64,000 nt of DNA from Porticoccaceae bacterium (GTDB taxonomy: Bacteria; Pseudomonadota; Gammaproteobacteria; Pseudomonadales; Porticoccaceae): the NCBI GenBank assembly GCA_021773435.1, contig JAJFKC010000010.1:1-64000 (forward strand). The letters run 5' to 3'. The position numbers and the translations under genes were made by a program. The notes below the pieces were generated by a model. It was not told where the DNA came from and did no database searches. It saw only the letters and a program-made list of their open reading frames with translations. Below, piece after piece: positions 4,364 through 27,729 of the stretch (position 1 is its first letter; the number at the start of each line of letters is the position of its first letter).

Positions 4364-5812
4364 ATGGTAGGAATTACAGCTTACGGTGCTTATTTGCCTC
4401 GCTTACGGCTGCAAAAGAAAGTAATCGCTGATGCCAATAGCTGGTTTGACTCGGGTCTCGTGGGTCTGGGCAAGGGTGAGAAGACCATGTGCAACTGGGA
4501 TGAAGATGCCATAACTATGGCGACGGAGGCCTATGCCGATTGCATGGGGCGTGAATCTGGCCAGTCGCCAGCTGCTTTGTTTCTTGCCTCAACCAGCTTG
4601 CCCTTTGCTGACCGTCAGCATTCGGTGATTGTCGCTGAAGCGCTTAATCTGGAGACTGCGGATCTGCGCACCATGGATGTGACATCGTCCCAACGTGCTG
4701 CAACTTCTGCGCTGCTATCTGCTTTGGATATTGCTGCCGCAGGCAACGGTGCGGCGGTGGTGGTATCTGCTGAACACCGTCTCACCAGGTGTGCGTCTCG
4801 TGAGGAGATGTTGTTTGGTGATGGTGCTGCGGCGATTTCAGTAGGTACTGATGGAGTTATTGCTGAGCTGGTTTGTAGTTTTACTCAGGCCACAGATATG
4901 GTAGATCACTACCGTGCCGAGGGTCAGGACTTTGACTATGGTTGGGAAGAGCGCTGGGTCCGTGATGTGGGCTATATGGGCATATTGCGTCATGCGGTTG
5001 AAGGCCTGCTAAGCAAAGCTGAAGTCGACGCCGGCGAGATTAAACATTTTATTCTACCGACGGACCAGGGTCGCGTACCCGCTATGGTTGCCAAGCGGCT
5101 GGGTATTGCCGACGCGGCGGTGGCCGATAATTTATTGCAGTCCGTGGGAAATACTGGTACCGCGCAGCCATTATTGTTGCTAGCTCAGCGACTGGAACAG
5201 GCCGAGCCGGGTGATCTGATTCTGGTAACCGGTTTTGGTCAGGGTTGTGATACTTTGTTGTTCCGCGCTACGGACGGAATTAAAGGTAAGAAACCGCTGA
5301 CGGGGGTATCGGGGCATTTAGCCCGCGGCGTCGCAGAAGAGAACTATAATAAATATCAATCGTTCAATAATTTACTCGATAAAGAACTTGGCAAGCGGGC
5401 TGATACCGACAAAACAGCTTTTCTGTCGGCTATGTACCGCAATAGAGATTTGGTGAATAGCTTTATCGGTGGTAAGTGTACCGCCTGTGACACGGTGCAG
5501 ATGCCCAAGCATAATTATTGTGTCAACCCGGATTGTGGCGCATTTAAAACCCAGGAAGATCACCCAATGTCTGGGGTTAAAGGCAAGGTGGCCACCTGGA
5601 CCGCCGATCGCCTGACCTTTGATTTTAATCCGCCGGCCTACTTTGGTTTAGTGAAGTTTGATGGTGGTGGTCGTATTATGATGGATATGACCGAGGTCGA
5701 TCCGGATACTTTTGATATCGGTACGGAAGTGTCGGTGCATTTTCGTATCAAGCAGATCGATAGCCAACGGGGTTTCCGCAAATATTTCTGGAAAGCCGTA
5801 CCTGCTGCATAG
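4364..5812 (+). CDS. HMG-CoA synthase-like thiolase-fold protein with C-terminal DUF35 zinc-ribbon/OB-fold domain
   Basis: 482 aa; thiolase fold (LFGDGAAAISVG, QSVGNTGTAQPLLLLA) followed by CTACDTVQMPKHNYCVNPDC zinc ribbon and OB-fold; preceded by GC-agnostic RBS-like agcaggaaat. Confidence 0.85.
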   Translation: MVGITAYGAYLPRLRLQKKVIADANSWFDSGLVGLGKGEKTMCNWDEDAITMATEAYADCMGRESGQSPAALFLASTSLPFADRQHSVIVAEALNLETADLRTMDVTSSQRAATSALLSALDIAAAGNGAAVVVSAEHRLTRCASREEMLFGDGAAAISVGTDGVIAELVCSFTQATDMVDHYRAEGQDFDYGWEERWVRDVGYMGILRHAVEGLLSKAEVDAGEIKHFILPTDQGRVPAMVAKRLGIADAAVADNLLQSVGNTGTAQPLLLLAQRLEQAEPGDLILVTGFGQGCDTLLFRATDGIKGKKPLTGVSGHLARGVAEENYNKYQSFNNLLDKELGKRADTDKTAFLSAMYRNRDLVNSFIGGKCTACDTVQMPKHNYCVNPDCGAFKTQEDHPMSGVKGKVATWTADRLTFDFNPPAYFGLVKFDGGGRIMMDMTEVDPDTFDIGTEVSVHFRIKQIDSQRGFRKYFWKAVPAA

Positions 5813-5865
5813 CCACAATAGCTAAATTGATAACTAAATTAGAGAACGCTCGACTAGCTGAGTAA

Positions 5866-7086
5866 TTGAGAGGAGTCATTAATATGGCCAGAGGAATTAA
5901 AGATAAAGTTGTTATTTTGGGTGCCGGTTGCAGTAAATTTGGCGAGCGTTGGGAGTGTGAGCCAGCCGACTTGATGGCGGAGGCGTTTGAAGAATGCATT
6001 GCCGATGCTGGTATAGAAAAGAATCAGATTGAAGCTGCCTGGCAGGCCACAGGTATCGACTCGTTCAGTGTTGGGCCGGGCGCCATGCCTCTGAGCATGG
6101 CGCTGCGTTTGCCGTATATCCCGGTTACGCGCCTGGAAAATTATTGCGCCAGTGGTACCGAGGCCTTTCGCGCGGCGACCTATGCCGTGGCCTCTGGTGC
6201 CTGTGATATCGCGCTGGCGATGGGTTTTGAGAAACTCAAAGATACCGGCTACGGAGGCCTGCCTCAACGGTCACGTGGCGTGAGCAACGACATGTACTAC
6301 CCAAACCTGTCAGCGCCAGGTATGTTTGCCCAGCTGGCGGCGGGGTATCGTGCCAAATACGGCACCAACAAAGAAGATCTGAAAAAAGCCATGGCTCATA
6401 TCTCTGTTAAAAGCCATGCCAATGGCCTGAAAAATCCCAAGGCCCATTTACAGCGCGCGATTACCGAAGAGCAAGCGCTCAATGCACCGATGATCGCTGA
6501 GCCCATTGGTTTGTACGACTGTTGTGGCGTTAGTGATGGCGCGGCCTGTGCCATTGTTACCACTCCGGAAATGGCCAAGAGCCTGGGCAAGAAGGATTTG
6601 ATCAGTGTTAAAGCACTGCAACTGTGTGCATCCAATGGCGAGGAAGGCGGTTTCGATAATTGGGACGGCTCCTACGTGGCGACGACCCGTATTGCGGCGA
6701 AACGAGCTTACGAAGAAGCGGGTGTCACCAAGCCTCGTAAAGAAATCAGTATGACCGAAGTTCACGACTGCTTCTCGGTCACCGAAATGGTCACCATGGA
6801 GGATTTATATCTGTCCGAAGACGGTGGTTCGGTGAAAGATGTGCTCGACGGCGTTTACGATGCCGACGGTGAAGTGCCTTGTCAGATTGATGGCGGCCTG
6901 AAATGCTTTGGTCATCCCATCGGTGCCTCTGGTCTGCGCATGTTGTACGAGATGTATTTACAGCTGGGAGGCCGAGCCAGTGATCGCCAATTGTCCGATC
7001 CGAAACTGGGTCTGACCCATAACCTGGGTGGTTTCCCTCACCAGAATGTGGTGAGTGTGGCGATTATTGGCCAACACGGTATTTAG
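5866..7086 (+). CDS. Acetyl-CoA acetyltransferase / SCP2-type thiolase
   Basis: NYCASGTEAF nucleophile motif, HDCFSVTEM, GHPIGASG, GGFPHQNVVSVAI. Confidence 0.88.
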   Translation: MRGVINMARGIKDKVVILGAGCSKFGERWECEPADLMAEAFEECIADAGIEKNQIEAAWQATGIDSFSVGPGAMPLSMALRLPYIPVTRLENYCASGTEAFRAATYAVASGACDIALAMGFEKLKDTGYGGLPQRSRGVSNDMYYPNLSAPGMFAQLAAGYRAKYGTNKEDLKKAMAHISVKSHANGLKNPKAHLQRAITEEQALNAPMIAEPIGLYDCCGVSDGAACAIVTTPEMAKSLGKKDLISVKALQLCASNGEEGGFDNWDGSYVATTRIAAKRAYEEAGVTKPRKEISMTEVHDCFSVTEMVTMEDLYLSEDGGSVKDVLDGVYDADGEVPCQIDGGLKCFGHPIGASGLRMLYEMYLQLGGRASDRQLSDPKLGLTHNLGGFPHQNVVSVAIIGQHGI

Positions 7087-8992: not shown

Positions 8993-9886
8993 ATGAGTGA
9001 AACCAAACATCTGGCCGATAAAGCCATTCTTGTTACGGGTTCCGGGCGCGGCATTGGCCGTACCATTGCATTGGAAGTGGCTAAAGCCGGTGGCAATGTG
9101 GTGGTTAACGATCTTGATCGCGATGTCGCGGAAGAAGTGGTTGCCGAGATAAAAGCTCTCGGCGTCGATGCGGTGGCCAATACTGATAGCGTGAGTGATT
9201 GGGAAGGCGCTAATAAAATGGTCACTCAGGCGGTCGATAATTTTGGCAAAATTAGCGGCGTTATCAACAACGCTGGCAACCTGCGCGATGTGATCTTTCA
9301 TAAAATGACTCAGGAAGACTGGGATATGGTGATCAACGTTCACCTGAAAGGCAGCTTTAATGTCAGTCGCGCGGCGGCCACCCATTTTCGAAATCAGGAG
9401 GCCGGCGTTTGTGTCCATATGACTTCTACATCCGGTTTGATTGGTAACTTTGGTCAGGCTAACTATTCGGCGGCGAAGGCGGGTATCGCTGCACTGTCAA
9501 AATCTATCGCACTGGATATGCAGCGTTATAATGTGCGCTCCAACTGTATTGCACCTTTTGCCTGGAGTCGTATGACCGCTTCTATTCCGGCCGATACCCC
9601 CGATCAAATTGAGCGCGTTGAACTATTAAAAAAGATGGTGCCAGAGAAAGTCGGCATTGTTGCTGCCGCCCTGTGTAGCGACAAAGCAGCACACATTACC
9701 GGCCAGATATTTGCCGTGCGTATGAATGAAATCTTTTTGATGAGTCAGTCTCGTCCCGTGCGATCTACCCATTGCGGTGATGGCTGGACGATTGACAGCA
9801 TTTTCGAAACGGCTATGCCGCAGCTGGAAAGCCACTTTTACAAGCTGGATCGCTCCCAGGATGTGTTTACCTGGGATCCCGTGTGA
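8993..9886 (+). CDS. Short-chain dehydrogenase/reductase (MFE-2-like 3-hydroxyacyl-CoA dehydrogenase type)
   Basis: TGSGRGIGRTIA, NNAGNLRD, STSGLIGNFGQANYSAAKAG catalytic motifs. Confidence 0.9.
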   Translation: MSETKHLADKAILVTGSGRGIGRTIALEVAKAGGNVVVNDLDRDVAEEVVAEIKALGVDAVANTDSVSDWEGANKMVTQAVDNFGKISGVINNAGNLRDVIFHKMTQEDWDMVINVHLKGSFNVSRAAATHFRNQEAGVCVHMTSTSGLIGNFGQANYSAAKAGIAALSKSIALDMQRYNVRSNCIAPFAWSRMTASIPADTPDQIERVELLKKMVPEKVGIVAAALCSDKAAHITGQIFAVRMNEIFLMSQSRPVRSTHCGDGWTIDSIFETAMPQLESHFYKLDRSQDVFTWDPV

Positions 9887-9926
9887 CTGTAGCTACATCG
9901 TTGTCTAAACCTGACAGGGCTTAAAA

Positions 9927-11138
9927 ATGGAAAATATTCTGTCGGGAATGCGCGTGGTCGAGGGCGCGGCCTTTATCGCAGCTCCTTCAGGTGCCATGAC
10001 CCTCGCTCAACTGGGTGCTGATGTTATTCGTTTCGATTTGATTGGTGGCGGCCTCGACTACCGCCGCTGGCCTGTGGATAAGAATAACGAGAGTTTGTTC
10101 TGGGCGGGAATGAATAAGGGCAAGCGATCCATTGCGGTAGATTTCCGTAAGGCCGAAGGTCAGGAGATTCTCACCCGGTTAATCACAGCACCCGGCGAAG
10201 ATGCGGGATTGTTCCTCACCAACTTTCCGGCACGAGGCTGGTTAGCCGACGAAAACCTGCGTAAAAATTGCAGTGATCTTATTTATATGAATCTCACCGG
10301 TGATCGTCACGGCGGCTCAGCGGTAGATTACACCGTAAATTGCCAGGTGGGTTTTACACATATGACTGGTGATTCCCAGGAACCGGTGAATCACGTACTT
10401 GCAGCGTGGGATGTGATTACGGGTCAGACCTTAGCCCTTGGCCTGCTAGCAGCAGAGCGCCATCGCCGCATTACCGGTAAAGGCCAGATGATCAAACTGG
10501 CTCTGGCTGATGTGGCTTTAGCCACGCTGGGCAATCTCGGCTTTATCGCGGAGGCCCAGGTTAACGGTGAGGAGCGCGAGGCCTACGGCAATTATCTATT
10601 CGGCGCTTACGGCAAAGATTTTGTCACCGCCGATGGTCAGCGAGTGATGATTGTCGGCCTCACCGGTAGTCAGTGGCGCGGCATTGTCAAATCTACTGGT
10701 CTCGATGATCAGTTTGATCAATTAGGTGAGCGCCTCGGTCTGGATTTAAAGCGGGAAGGGGATCGCTTCCGCGCCCGTGAAGAAATCAGTCTATTGCTCG
10801 CGCCATGGTTTGCGGCAAATAATTTTAAAGATGTTCAGGCTCGGTTTGATAGCAATGGCGTTTGCTGGGGTAAATATCAAAGTGTCGCTGAACTGGTTGC
10901 CAATGATAAAGAGTGTTCAACCGATAATCCCTTGTTTGAAAACGTCGAACAGCCAGGTATCGGTAGTTATCTGATGCCTTCAAGTCCGTTGCAGTTTGGC
11001 GAGTTCGCTCGGCAGGCGGTTCGACCCGCGCCCAGAGTGGGTCAGCATACCGACCAAATTCTTGCCGATGACCTGGGGATGAGTAGCGTGGAAATTGGTA
11101 AGTTGCATGACGCTAATATCGTGGCGGGAGCAGATTAG
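9927..11138 (+). CDS. CoA-transferase family III (CaiB/BaiF)
   Basis: N-terminal LSGMRVVEGAAFIAAPSGAMTLAQLGADVIRFD; catalytic-Asp-like AAWDVITGQTLALGLLAAE. Confidence 0.88.
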   Translation: MENILSGMRVVEGAAFIAAPSGAMTLAQLGADVIRFDLIGGGLDYRRWPVDKNNESLFWAGMNKGKRSIAVDFRKAEGQEILTRLITAPGEDAGLFLTNFPARGWLADENLRKNCSDLIYMNLTGDRHGGSAVDYTVNCQVGFTHMTGDSQEPVNHVLAAWDVITGQTLALGLLAAERHRRITGKGQMIKLALADVALATLGNLGFIAEAQVNGEEREAYGNYLFGAYGKDFVTADGQRVMIVGLTGSQWRGIVKSTGLDDQFDQLGERLGLDLKREGDRFRAREEISLLLAPWFAANNFKDVQARFDSNGVCWGKYQSVAELVANDKECSTDNPLFENVEQPGIGSYLMPSSPLQFGEFARQAVRPAPRVGQHTDQILADDLGMSSVEIGKLHDANIVAGAD

Positions 11139-18007: not shown

Positions 18008-19828
18008 ATGACCAGTGCAGCAAATCAACAATTCGATCCATCAATGTTAGGCTTTGATCCAGACGTATTACGCGCCAAATATCGCTCAGAGCGAGACAAA
18101 AGAATCCGCCCCGATGGCTTTGGCCAATATCAGGCCGCAGTTGGAGACTTTTCCAATTTTATCGAAGACCATTATGTAGAGCCGGGTTTTACTCGGGAGC
18201 CATTAAAAGATGAAGTTGAGGTGGCCATCATTGGTGGTGGTTTTGGCGGCTTGTTGTCTGGTGCGCGCCTGCGCCAGGCAGGTGTTAAAGATATTCGCGT
18301 AATTGATAAAGCCGGTGATTTTGGCGGCACCTGGTACTGGAATCGTTACCCCGGTGCTCAATGTGATGTTGAGTCTTATGTGTATTTGCCGCTGCTCGAA
18401 GAACTGGGTTATATCCCCAGCGAAAAATATTGCCACGCACCAGAGATTCTTGAGCACAGCATTAACATCGCCAAAAAATTTAATCTGTATGACAAAGCCT
18501 GTTTTCAAACAGAAGTGACGGAAGTTCGCTGGGACGAAAGTATTTCCCGATGGATTATTTACACTGATCGCGGTGATGAGATCAAAGCTCAATATGTGGC
18601 TATGGCCAACGGTTTGCTGACTCGCCCCAAATTACCCGGTATTCCCGGTATCGAAAAATTCAAGGGTCATACATTTCACACAAGCCGTTGGGACTACGAT
18701 TACACGGGCGGTAGCAGTGATGGTGATTTGAATAAGCTCAGCGATAAGCGAGTGGGTATTATTGGTACCGGCGCAACGTCCATTCAATGTATTCCTCATC
18801 TCGGTGCCGCCGCTCAGCAATTGTATGTATTTCAACGTACGCCCTCATCGGTTGATATACGAAATAATGGGCCGACTGATCCAGAATGGGCAAAATCCCT
18901 GGACCCAGGCTGGCAAAAAAAGCGGATGGAAAACTTCAACGCATTGGTTAGCGGTATACCTCAGGACGAAGACCTGGTTAGTGACGGCTGGACGGATATT
19001 TTTAAAAATTTACAGACTATTCTCGCGACCACCGAAGGCAATGAAATATCAAGTGACGATCAAGAGCTGGCCGCCGAAATTGCCGACTTCCAGAAAATGG
19101 AACAGGTCAGAGCACGGGCCGAACGTGTTGTTAAAAATAGCTCCACCTCCGAGGCTTTAAAGCCTTATTTCAGGCAGTTTTGTAAGCGGCCATGTTTTCA
19201 TGATGAGTATCTCGATACCTATAATCGTCCCAATGTCACCCTGGTTGATACCAAAGGTCAGGGTGTCGAACGGGTGACAGAAACCGGCGTGATTGTCGGC
19301 GGCAAAGAGTACGAAATAGATTGTCTGGTTTTTGCCACCGGCTTTGAAGTCGGCACCAACTACACCAGCCAATCTGGTTACGATGTGATTGGTAAAGATG
19401 GAATTTCGCTGCGGGAGAAATGGGATAACGGGCTATCCACCTTTCATGGCCTGTATAGCCACGGTTTCCCCAACGCCTTCTTTCTGGGCTTCACCCAGAC
19501 CGGACTCACTGCCAATGTTCCCCATGGTCTGAACGAACAGGCCAGTCACCTGGCACACGTGGTTAAACATGGCAGGGACAATAATGCGACCACCATCGAA
19601 GCTACGCAGGCGGCGGAAGACGATTGGGTCGCCACGATTCATAGTCTGGCGCATATGGCCGAAAGCTATTTTATCGAGTGCACACCTGGCTACTACAACA
19701 ACGAAGGTAAAGCTGGTAATCGCAATGGTTTTCTCAGTGGGCAGTATGGTGGTGGCCCGGTGGAATTTTTCCAGATCCTCGAGGATTGGCGAACCGAAGG
19801 AAATTTCGAGGGGTTAGAATTTAAATAA
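18008..19828 (+). CDS. Flavin-containing Baeyer-Villiger monooxygenase (BVMO-1)
   Basis: [28 protein letters not shown] fingerprint-like [18 protein letters not shown]. Confidence 0.93.
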
Positions 19829-19965: not shown

Positions 19966-21795
19966 GTGACTCGTAAAAATGAGACGCGTACAAAACCGTT
20001 TTCGACTGACCCAGCTGAACTGGGTTTTGATCCAGTCGCCCTGCGTGATAAATACAATATGGAGCGCGATAAACGCATCCGTAAAGACGGATACGGGCAA
20101 TATATAGATGCAGCGGGCAAACTCTCTGATTATATGCATGATTTCTATGCAGAGCCTTTCACGAGAGAACCACTGACCGACGAAGTTGAAGTCGCCATTA
20201 TTGGTGGCGGTTTTAGTGGATTGATGGTCGGTGCCGCGTTGCGTGACGCGGGGGTTAAAGATATTCGCGTTATCGACAAAGCCGGTGATTTTGGCGGCAC
20301 CTGGTACTGGAACCGTTATCCGGGCGCGCAATGCGATATTGAAGCCTATGTCTATATGCCGCTGCTCGAAGAGCTCGATTATGTGCCCACAGAGCGCTAT
20401 GCCCACGCGCCGGAATTACTGCAACACAGTATCAATATCGCGAAAAAATACGACCTCTATAAAGACACCTGTTTTCAGACCGAGATTACCGAACTTCGCT
20501 GGGACGAAAGCATCTCTCGATGGATTATTCATACCGACCGTGGCGATGCCATGAAAGCCCGTTATGTGGCCCTGGCCAACGGCCTGTTGACTCGGCCCAA
20601 GTTGCCCGGCATCCCCGGTATCGAAACCTTCAAGGGCCACACTTTTCATACCGGTCGTTGGGATTATGACTATACCGGCGGCAGTAGCGCGGGCGACCTG
20701 AGTAAACTGGGCGATAAACGTGTTGGCATTATAGGTACTGGGCCGACCTCGATTCAGTGTATCCCCCATCTTGGCGAAGCATCAAAAGCACTCTATGTAT
20801 TCCAACGCACGCCATCGTCCGTTGATGCCAGATATAACGCGCCCACTGACCCGGTGTGGAAAGCGAAACTAAAACCCGGGTGGCATAAAGCACGGGTCGA
20901 GAATTTTAGCATTGCCCTTGGTGGTGGTTATGCCGATGAAGATATGGTGGGCGATGGCTGGACCGATATTTTTCGAAATATTGGTGGCATCGTCACCGGT
21001 GACATTGATGAATTGTCTGACGAGGAACAGGAACAAGTCTTTGAGCTGGCAGATTTTCAAAAGATGGAGGAAATACGAAATCGCGCAGCAAGCATTGTTG
21101 AAGATCAGGCAACGGCGGAGGCACTAAAAGCCTATTATCGCCAATATTGTAAACGACCCTGTTTCCATGATGATTATTTGCAAACCTATAATCGCCCGAG
21201 TGTGACTTTGGTCGACACCAATGGCCAGGGTCCCGAGCGAATCACCGAAACCGGTGTTGTCGTCGATGGCAAAGAGTACGAAATTGACTGCCTGATTATT
21301 TCTACCGGCTTTGAGGTGGGTTCAAACTACACCAGTCAGTCTGGTTATGACGTTATTGGCCGCAATGGCACTGCGCTGAGCAAGAAGTGGGCTGATGGAT
21401 TTTCCACACTCCATGGCCTACAAACCCATGACTTCCCCAATTGTTTCTTCCTGGGTTTTACCCAAACCGGTGTTACTGCCAATGCTACCCATACCCTGGG
21501 TGAGCAGGCCCAGCATTTGGCCTATATCGTGGCGCAAGCAATGGCGAGAAAAGCTGAAACAGTCGAGGCTACCCAGGCAGCGGAAGACGAATGGTGTGCC
21601 GTTTGCGACAGCTATGGTGACAAAACCGAAAGGCTACTTGAAGAATGCACGCCTGGTTATTACAACAACGAAGGCTCGGGCGCTAGCAAAAAAGGCATTT
21701 TTTCTGGCCAATACGGTGGCGGTGCTGCGCAGTTTTTCGACATTATTAAAAAGTGGCGCGATGAGGGTAATTTACGGGGTGTGGAGATTAAATAA
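19966..21795 (+). CDS. Flavin-containing Baeyer-Villiger monooxygenase (BVMO-2)
   Basis: Starts with GTG upstream/ATG here; [42 protein letters not shown]. Confidence 0.93.
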   Translation: MTRKNETRTKPFSTDPAELGFDPVALRDKYNMERDKRIRKDGYGQYIDAAGKLSDYMHDFYAEPFTREPLTDEVEVAIIGGGFSGLMVGAALRDAGVKDIRVIDKAGDFGGTWYWNRYPGAQCDIEAYVYMPLLEELDYVPTERYAHAPELLQHSINIAKKYDLYKDTCFQTEITELRWDESISRWIIHTDRGDAMKARYVALANGLLTRPKLPGIPGIETFKGHTFHTGRWDYDYTGGSSAGDLSKLGDKRVGIIGTGPTSIQCIPHLGEASKALYVFQRTPSSVDARYNAPTDPVWKAKLKPGWHKARVENFSIALGGGYADEDMVGDGWTDIFRNIGGIVTGDIDELSDEEQEQVFELADFQKMEEIRNRAASIVEDQATAEALKAYYRQYCKRPCFHDDYLQTYNRPSVTLVDTNGQGPERITETGVVVDGKEYEIDCLIISTGFEVGSNYTSQSGYDVIGRNGTALSKKWADGFSTLHGLQTHDFPNCFFLGFTQTGVTANATHTLGEQAQHLAYIVAQAMARKAETVEATQAAEDEWCAVCDSYGDKTERLLEECTPGYYNNEGSGASKKGIFSGQYGGGAAQFFDIIKKWRDEGNLRGVEIK

Positions 21796-25905: not shown

Positions 25906-27729
25906 ATGACGAGCGCCATAAAATTCACCACCGATCCATCGGAACTGGATTTCGATCCAGAAGCACTACGAGAAAAATATCGCCACGAGCGTGACAAGCG
26001 CATTCGCAAAGATGGTATGCGTCAGTTTCAGGAACCTGAGGGCGACTTCTCCAAATACATTGATGACCCCTACGTTGAACCTGGGTTTACCCGTGCACCG
26101 CTGGCCGACGAAGTTGAAGTGGTGGTTATTGGCGGTGGTTTTGGCGGCCTATTGGCTGGCGCTCGCTTGCGTCAGGCCGGGGTCAAAGATATTCGCATAA
26201 TCGAGCGCGCCGGTGATTTTGGCGGTACCTGGTACTGGAATCGCTACCCCGGTGCGCAATGTGATGTTGAATCTTATGTGTATCTGCCCTTACTGGAGGA
26301 GCTGGGTTACATCCCTAAAGAAAAATACTCCCACGCCCCGGAAATTTTTGAACACAGTAAGGCCATAGCCCGGCATTTTAATCTCTACGACAACGCTTGC
26401 CTGCAAACCCAGGTCACCGAGATGCGATGGGATGAAGACAGCGCTCGCTGGATCATTGAGACTGACCGGGGCGATAGTATGAAAGCCCGTTTTGTCGCGA
26501 TGTCCAATGGCCCGTTAAGCCGACCCAAGTTGCCGGGTATTCCTGGCATCTCCACATTTAAAGGCCATACCTTTCACACCAGCCGCTGGGATTATGACTA
26601 CACCGGCGGTGATGCTACTGGTGATCTCAGCAACCTTAAGGATAAACGCGTTGGTATTATTGGCACTGGTGCGACGGCTGTGCAGTGCATACCTCACCTG
26701 GGTGCCGCTGCCAAAGAATTGTATGTTTTTCAACGCACACCTTCGTCTATCGATGTCCGCAACAATCGCCCTACTGATCCCGAATGGTCAAAGACTCTAA
26801 AACCGGGTTGGCATCAGGCGCGCATGGATAACTTTAATACCCTTACTGCGGGTGGCCAAACCGAAGAGGATTTGGTTAGCGATGGCTGGACCGATATCTT
26901 CCGTAATCTGACCGGTGTAAATGCCCGGGAGCAATTGCCGGATATGCGCTCTTCTGAAATTGCGCTGGTCAACGAGCACGCGGATATGCAGAAAATGAAT
27001 CAGATTCGAGCGCGGGTCGATACTATTGTTGAAGATTCAAAAACGGCAGACGCGCTTAAACCCTGGTACAGACAGTTTTGCAAGCGCCCTGGTTTTCACG
27101 ATCAATATTTACAGACCTATAACCGGCCCGGCGTGACCTTGGTTGATACCAGAGGTCAGGGCGTAGAGCGTGTCACCGAGACCGGTGTGGGGGTCGAGGG
27201 GAAAGAATATGAATTAGATTGCCTGATCTTCGCCACGGGCTTTGAGGTTGGCACCAATTATACCAAGCAATCTGGCTACGATCTTATTGGCCGAAACAAT
27301 GTCCGCCTCAGCGAAAAATGGGCTGATGGATTGTCGACCTTCCACGGGTTGCATAGCCATAATTTTCCCAACTGCTTTTTTATGGGCTTTACCCAAAGTG
27401 GCTTTACCACGAGTGTGCCGCACACCCTCAATGAACAGGCCAAGCACCTCAGTTATATCCTGAAACACGTACTCGACAATGATATAAAGACTTTCGAGAC
27501 TAGTCAGGAGGCGGAAGATGAATGGGTTGAAATCATAAGAAGCAAGGCTCACCTAGGTGAACGCTTTTACGCGGAATGTACGCCTGGTTATTACAACAAC
27601 GAAGGCAAGGGTGGGGGTAGTACTGGCTTTTTAAGTGGGCAATATGGTGATGGCCCGGTGGCATTTTTTAACGTGCTGGATAAGTGGCGCGAGGAAGGCA
27701 GCCTTGCCGGCCTAGATATCACCAGTTAG
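25906..27729 (+). CDS. Flavin-containing Baeyer-Villiger monooxygenase (BVMO-3)
   Basis: [42 protein letters not shown]. Confidence 0.93.

Follow-up and report, generated by a model that had tools for sequence, protein, structure and literature searches.

Two neighbouring genes on the forward strand of the window (the whole stretch of 64,000 nucleotides that was analysed) encode a protein in which a domain resembling HMG-CoA synthase (HMGCS) is fused to a DUF35 module, and an SCP2-type thiolase. They are followed by further genes of acyl-CoA metabolism, and the features discussed here are the following:

4364-5812, forward strand: P0001 ORF, pseudo-HMGCS/DUF35 fusion of 482 aa
4364-5281, forward strand: HMG-CoA-synthase-like domain with the triad lost (Thr77, Gln110, Pro232), from profiles, alignment, AlphaFold2 model and fold matches
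4691-4693, forward strand: codon for Gln110, the residue that replaces the HMGCS nucleophile Cys, from the alignment (Cys in 0 of 135 fusion proteins)
5459-5746, forward strand: DUF35 module, a rubredoxin-like zinc ribbon (C372, C375, C386, C391) plus OB-fold (PF12172, PF01796)
5884-7086, forward strand, probable start: P0002, SCP2-type thiolase (PRK06157) with C94, H300, C302 and H350 intact, from NF004810 and the invariant residues
7213-8913, forward strand: acyl-CoA dehydrogenase with an N-terminal extension, methylsuccinyl-CoA dehydrogenase-like (Mcd-like), from 8CIW and 6ES9
8993-9886, forward strand: SDR dehydrogenase (PRK07791/FabG-like), probable 3-hydroxyacyl-CoA dehydrogenase, adjoining MaoC hydratase-2 homologues in relatives
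9927-11138, forward strand: Mct-like CoA transferase, from TIGR04253 and PDB 8APQ

P0001 consists of an HMGCS-like part (approximately residues 1-310), a zf-ChsH2 domain (366-394) and an OB_ChsH2_C domain (401-461). Its DUF35 module is recognised by PF12172 (29.0 bits, cut-off 23.2) and PF01796 (37.2 bits, cut-off 27.1), both scores lying above the Pfam gathering cut-offs, and residues 1-334 are matched by the archaeal-type HMGCS profiles NF003274 (172 bits, cut-off 244) and TIGR00748 (115 bits, cut-off 353), in both cases below cut-off. Thus, the HMGCS-like/DUF35 fusion that a preliminary description had placed at 4364-5812 is confirmed by the ORF, the Pfam domains and the HMGCS profile matches. 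The AlphaFold2 model of the protein (pLDDT 91, pTM 0.92, 54 sequences) has the HMGCS fold of the thiolase superfamily, with a Foldseek TM(target) of 0.86 to 6ESQ. Its top fold matches are the HMGCS-like subunits of DUF35 complexes (9SKH, 5MG5, 6ESQ and 9VBT); PhlA and archaeal HMGCS are matched with E-values of 1e-24 to 1e-26, free-standing HMGCS and FabH coming later, at 1e-17.

Alignment with the archaeal HMGCS 6ESQ puts Gln110 of P0001 at Cys114, Thr77 at Glu82 and Pro232 at the His, so that the loss of the three catalytic residues had been correctly placed from the beginning. The same columns (nucleophile, Glu and His) read Gly, Cys and Gln both in PhlA (5M3K) and in its relative 9SKH, and Glu, Cys and Gln in MucA (9VBO). 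When 135 fusion proteins of Proteobacteria, Actinomycetota and Halobacteria are aligned, the nucleophile column holds Gln in 97, a share inflated by a sampling skewed towards the query (the 80 contig loci being the best matches of at least 585), followed by Leu (10), Thr (9), Ser (8), Arg (6) and Met (2), with Cys in none. Thr occupies the Glu column in 127 and Glu in none, Pro the His column in 107 and His in two, and the Asn column is variable. Cys and Glu are absent in distant members as well; the loss of the triad is family-wide and more than chance. A scan of the columns of the HMGCS domain in the 135 homologues found no relocated triad, with no Cys, His or Glu restored elsewhere and no near-invariant Cys or His, the best columns being H182 (103/135), H268 (98/135) and C295 (97/135). 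The zinc cysteines of the DUF35 module are kept in 123-132 of the 135 proteins; in the branch of Sphingopyxis and its kin (L166:7567-8997) they have been lost too.

The partner protein P0002 scores 670.8 bits against NF004810, the PRK06157 equivalog (cut-off 403). It carries the thiolase motifs NYCASG (C94), HDCF (H300, C302) and GHP (H350), residues being counted from TTG 5866, and these four residues are invariant in 73 of 73 partner thiolases and in 44 of 44 of a wider set, which bears out the earlier view of an intact thiolase. The replacement of the CxG motif by GGFP, also reported before, is present but not unusual, being ordinary for SCP2-type thiolases: CxG is likewise absent at this position from related thiolases in the PDB, both SCP2-type and archaeal, and in SCP2-thiolases the Cys of HDCF does the job of the CxG Cys. 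Similarly, the ORF described at 5866-7086 exists, but its translation probably begins at ATG 5884 and not at TTG 5866, because the resulting MARGIKDK aligns with the MASGIKDK starts of relatives. A structural model of P0002 was poor (pLDDT 69, with active-site loops of low confidence) and was left out of the analysis.

The search for fusion loci covered 369 genomes at class level, 399 at phylum level and 58 close relatives, as well as genome contigs and plasmids. The gene is found in a minority of genomes (10/369 in the class, 10/399 in the phylum and 18/58 among close relatives), and the scan of genome contigs gave at least 585 relatives, of which the best 80 were kept; this large family is poorly named, its members being annotated as OB-fold or FabH-like proteins. 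In 74 of 77 loci the fusion gene is followed on its own strand, at a distance of at most 300 nt, by a thiolase gene, the two often overlapping or being separated by 1-4 nt, and none of the 77 contains a single-chain fusion of the three modules (HMGCS-like, DUF35 and thiolase). In the haloarchaeal loci that were read, the thiolase is directly upstream of the fusion, an order seen on the plasmids of L164, L165, L167 and L168, including pHME505 of Haloferax mediterranei. The two-subunit ketothiolases BktB/PhaA of this species were considered as a characterised member of the family and set aside, since the plasmid carries one fusion-thiolase pair but also two other DUF35 matches in short frames, either of which could belong to BktB-beta instead of the fusion, and the thiolase of the pair has Cys, whereas a review gives Ser. 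The window genome (G000) encodes two fusions, the second of which, on contig C30, shows 31% identity and has its own thiolase. Ten DUF35 matches were observed in this genome, on contigs C12, C13, C17, C23, C30, C32, C39, C40 and C49, two of them being the HMGCS fusions and the other eight lying in short frames; nearly all adjoin a thiolase-like gene, so that a single organism possesses numerous DUF35-thiolase pairs in parallel.

Taking into account the family-wide loss of the triad, the strict co-location of both genes and the closest folds, which belong to DUF35 complexes, it is very likely that the HMGCS domain of P0001 is a non-catalytic scaffold, as had been suggested, and also very likely that P0001 and P0002 form one thiolase complex bridged by DUF35. 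In the same loci, the thiolases share 71% identity with the window protein and the HMGCS parts of the fusions 52%, and this higher conservation of the thiolase fits a division between catalyst and scaffold. The explanation that best joins these observations, and which we regard as probable, is therefore a DUF35-bridged two-subunit thiolase in which P0002 would be the catalyst, with C94 as the nucleophile assisted by H300, C302 and H350, and P0001 the structural half, its pseudo-HMGCS domain and fused DUF35 holding the thiolase and probably contributing part of the CoA pocket. Thiolysis is the most likely reaction of the pair. Apparently, the pair is a widespread, uncharacterised variant of complexes known from archaea and Pseudomonas.

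The closest precedent of the fusion, not named in the preliminary description, is PhlA of the Friedel-Crafts acylase PhlACB (5M3K, 9SKH), the best match for P0001 both in fold and in sequence. The structure of this complex has revealed that PhlA lacks the catalytic Cys and Glu, that acyl transfer relies on PhlC residues only, and that the complex requires PhlA and PhlB (PMC6392133); thus, the idea of a dead subunit is established for a relative. Both systems share an HMGCS-like subunit devoid of Cys and Glu, a DUF35 bridge and a catalytic thiolase subunit. However, PhlACB is made of three separate proteins, whereas the A and B subunits are fused in one polypeptide in the window; the residues replacing Cys, Glu and His are Gly, Cys and Gln in PhlA and Gln, Thr and Pro in P0001; and PhlACB is a physical heterododecamer that transfers acyl groups to phenols in the synthesis of the antibiotic 2,4-diacetylphloroglucinol, whereas the window pair, known from sequences and a single-chain model, has β-oxidation neighbours.

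The archaeal acetoacetyl-CoA thiolase/HMGCS/DUF35 complex (6ESQ) resembles the window pair in its three modules and in the SCP2-type motifs of its thiolase, but its modules are unfused and its HMGCS, which retains Cys, Glu and His, is active in the mevalonate pathway. The acyltransferase complex MucABC (9VBO) also has an HMGCS-like subunit, MucA, in which Glu takes the place of the Cys, although it catalyses tetramate C-acetylation and its subunits are separate. As for the benzoylsuccinyl-CoA thiolase BbsAB (7PXP), it shares the association of DUF35 and thiolase, the β-oxidation of dicarboxyl-CoA compounds and a family III CoA transferase, but lacks an HMGCS-like domain, and P0002 stays below the BbsB equivalog cut-off (133.5 bits, cut-off 750). 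In a tree of 40 rows, PhlA and MucA cluster with archaeal HMGCS (99/96), and the bacterial fusions form a separate group (89/85). This grouping, together with the different replacing residues, suggests that the triad was lost independently in the fusions and in PhlA/MucA, the root and the long branches of the tree being unsure.

The HMGCS domain of the fusions contains some nearly invariant residues (D46-E47-D48, E148 and E195-E196-R197) that are not known to have a role, and a residual ligand-binding or catalytic function is therefore possible. Rather unlikely, in our estimation, is that the pocket has been rebuilt as a second working site (a CoA gate, an effector site or an extra hydrolysis) acting on the thiolase product; the residues of such a site could be the conserved T77, R111, D46-E48 and E195-E196-R197, and its rebuilding would run parallel to those of PhlA and MucA.

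It had also been suggested that the pair could be a retro-aldolase, with the thiolase fold acting on a β-hydroxyacyl-CoA as in Ltp2 or Sal and DUF35 as an obligate partner. The steroid aldolases Ltp2 and Sal do have a DUF35 partner, and their catalytic Tyr lies in the motif YDHF/YDCY (PMC12329534). A thiolase fold with a DUF35 partner is what Ltp2/ChsH2 and Sal/Shy have in common with the window pair, and the Baeyer-Villiger-type monooxygenase and acyl-CoA dehydrogenase genes nearby suggest cyclic or steroid-like substrates. Those enzymes, however, carry out aldol chemistry and have MaoC, and not HMGCS, attached to their DUF35, whereas P0002 shows HDCF instead of YDHF/YDCY, an invariant nucleophile Cys and both invariant His, that is, the full set of SCP2-thiolase residues, and the cluster, of β-oxidation character, includes a 3-hydroxyacyl-type SDR that an aldolase would not need. 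Thus, the aldolase activity is improbable. A similarly small chance is given to a Friedel-Crafts C-acyltransferase or C-deacylase like PhlACB, in which a carbon acceptor would receive or give up an acyl group: the nearest folds are those of PhlA-type subunits, from which these two residues have disappeared as well, but the neighbours are β-oxidation genes and not polyketide or phenol genes, and P0002 is far closer to PRK06157 and to archaeal/SCP2 thiolases than to PhlC. Finally, the analogy once drawn between the Cys-to-Gln change and KSQ-type enzymes, according to which Gln110 would make the HMGCS domain a decarboxylase working with the thiolase, relies on the frequent Gln at the nucleophile position (97/135 in the query-skewed set), but this residue is Leu, Thr, Ser, Arg or Met in other fusions, Pro replaces in 107/135 the His kept by KSQ-type enzymes, the Asn column varies and the pairing with the thiolase persists in fusions devoid of Gln, so that, with Gln not conserved and His lost, this very improbable reading was rejected.

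If the pair is a thiolase, the downstream genes offer some indication of its substrate. The product of 7213-8913 matches 8CIW with 574 bits over residues 19-556 and 6ES9 with 303 bits, and it carries an N-terminal extension, which is a feature of methylsuccinyl-CoA dehydrogenases (PMC5798300). The best PDB matches of the Mct-like transferase are, by far, 8APQ (568 bits) and 7XKG, its score against TIGR04253 (603 bits) lying below the equivalog cut-off of 725. No crotonyl-CoA carboxylase/reductase above cut-off was found in the window genome, and the Mcd-like gene is therefore probably not devoted to the ethylmalonyl-CoA pathway. It is tentatively proposed, with somewhat less than even confidence, that the pair acts on a branched 3-oxo-dicarboxyl-CoA, 4-methyl-3-oxoadipyl-CoA being one example. 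Its thiolysis would release acetyl-CoA and methylsuccinyl-CoA, with the CoA next to the methyl carbon, which is the form taken by Mcd, and methylsuccinyl-CoA would then be processed by the Mcd-like and Mct-like enzymes, a hydratase and a lyase, towards citramalyl-CoA. A parallel exists in anaerobic naphthalene degradation, in which, after thiolysis, CoA is moved within the molecule and oxidation then continues (PMC11659651).

In two related loci (L019 and L020, the latter of Marinobacter litoralis), genes for a MaoC hydratase similar to peroxisomal hydratase 2, a citramalyl-CoA-lyase-like protein (141 bits to the RipC citramalyl-CoA lyase profile, below cut-off) and the fusion-thiolase pair form one run, together with a further gene of 290-302 aa judged to be MaoC-like; homologues of these upstream genes are present on contig C26 of the window genome. 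The MaoC hydratase gene that lies between the SDR and Mct-like genes in L019, L020 and L031 is missing from the window at 9886-9927 and from L017, and no homologue of it was found in the window genome. Thiolase, Mcd-like and Mct-like genes occur together again in 17 of the best 80 of at least 585 relatives and, since most pairs thus have no Mcd or Mct gene beside them, the proposed substrate fits one branch at most. Other loci of the pair have SDR, MaoC, CoA ligase and ring-hydroxylating dioxygenase genes as neighbours, and the family must therefore serve several substrates.

The loss of the triad in a DUF35-thiolase setting is already known, PhlA being its published counterpart; what is new is the fusion of the A and B subunits and the catabolic setting. 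In the open-licence literature searched, no description was found of the fused pseudo-HMGCS/DUF35 protein as part of a widespread two-gene thiolase, nor of a link between this pair and methylsuccinyl-CoA genes. If the proposed reading is true, a large family of at least 585 relatives gains a function as partner of a catabolic thiolase, the role of a dead domain becomes testable in a two-gene system, and HMGCS-like pseudo-enzymes would seem to have evolved more than once around DUF35 thiolases. Moreover, an aerobic route for branched dicarboxylates via methylsuccinyl-CoA would use an Mct-like enzyme of the 3-hydroxypropionate bicycle type.

Some other observations concern the surroundings of the pair. 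The Mct-like transferase, known from the 3-hydroxypropionate bicycle, is kept beside the Mcd-like gene in Gammaproteobacteria. On the reverse strand, 561-1691 is a lipoprotein-like ORF of 376 aa without any Pfam match. Further downstream, the window contains three paralogous Baeyer-Villiger-type monooxygenases (18008-19828, 19966-21795 and 25906-27729), the first of which scores 846 bits against the PtlE family model, and their sequences suggest that a cyclic ketone or a terpenoid may be broken down nearby.
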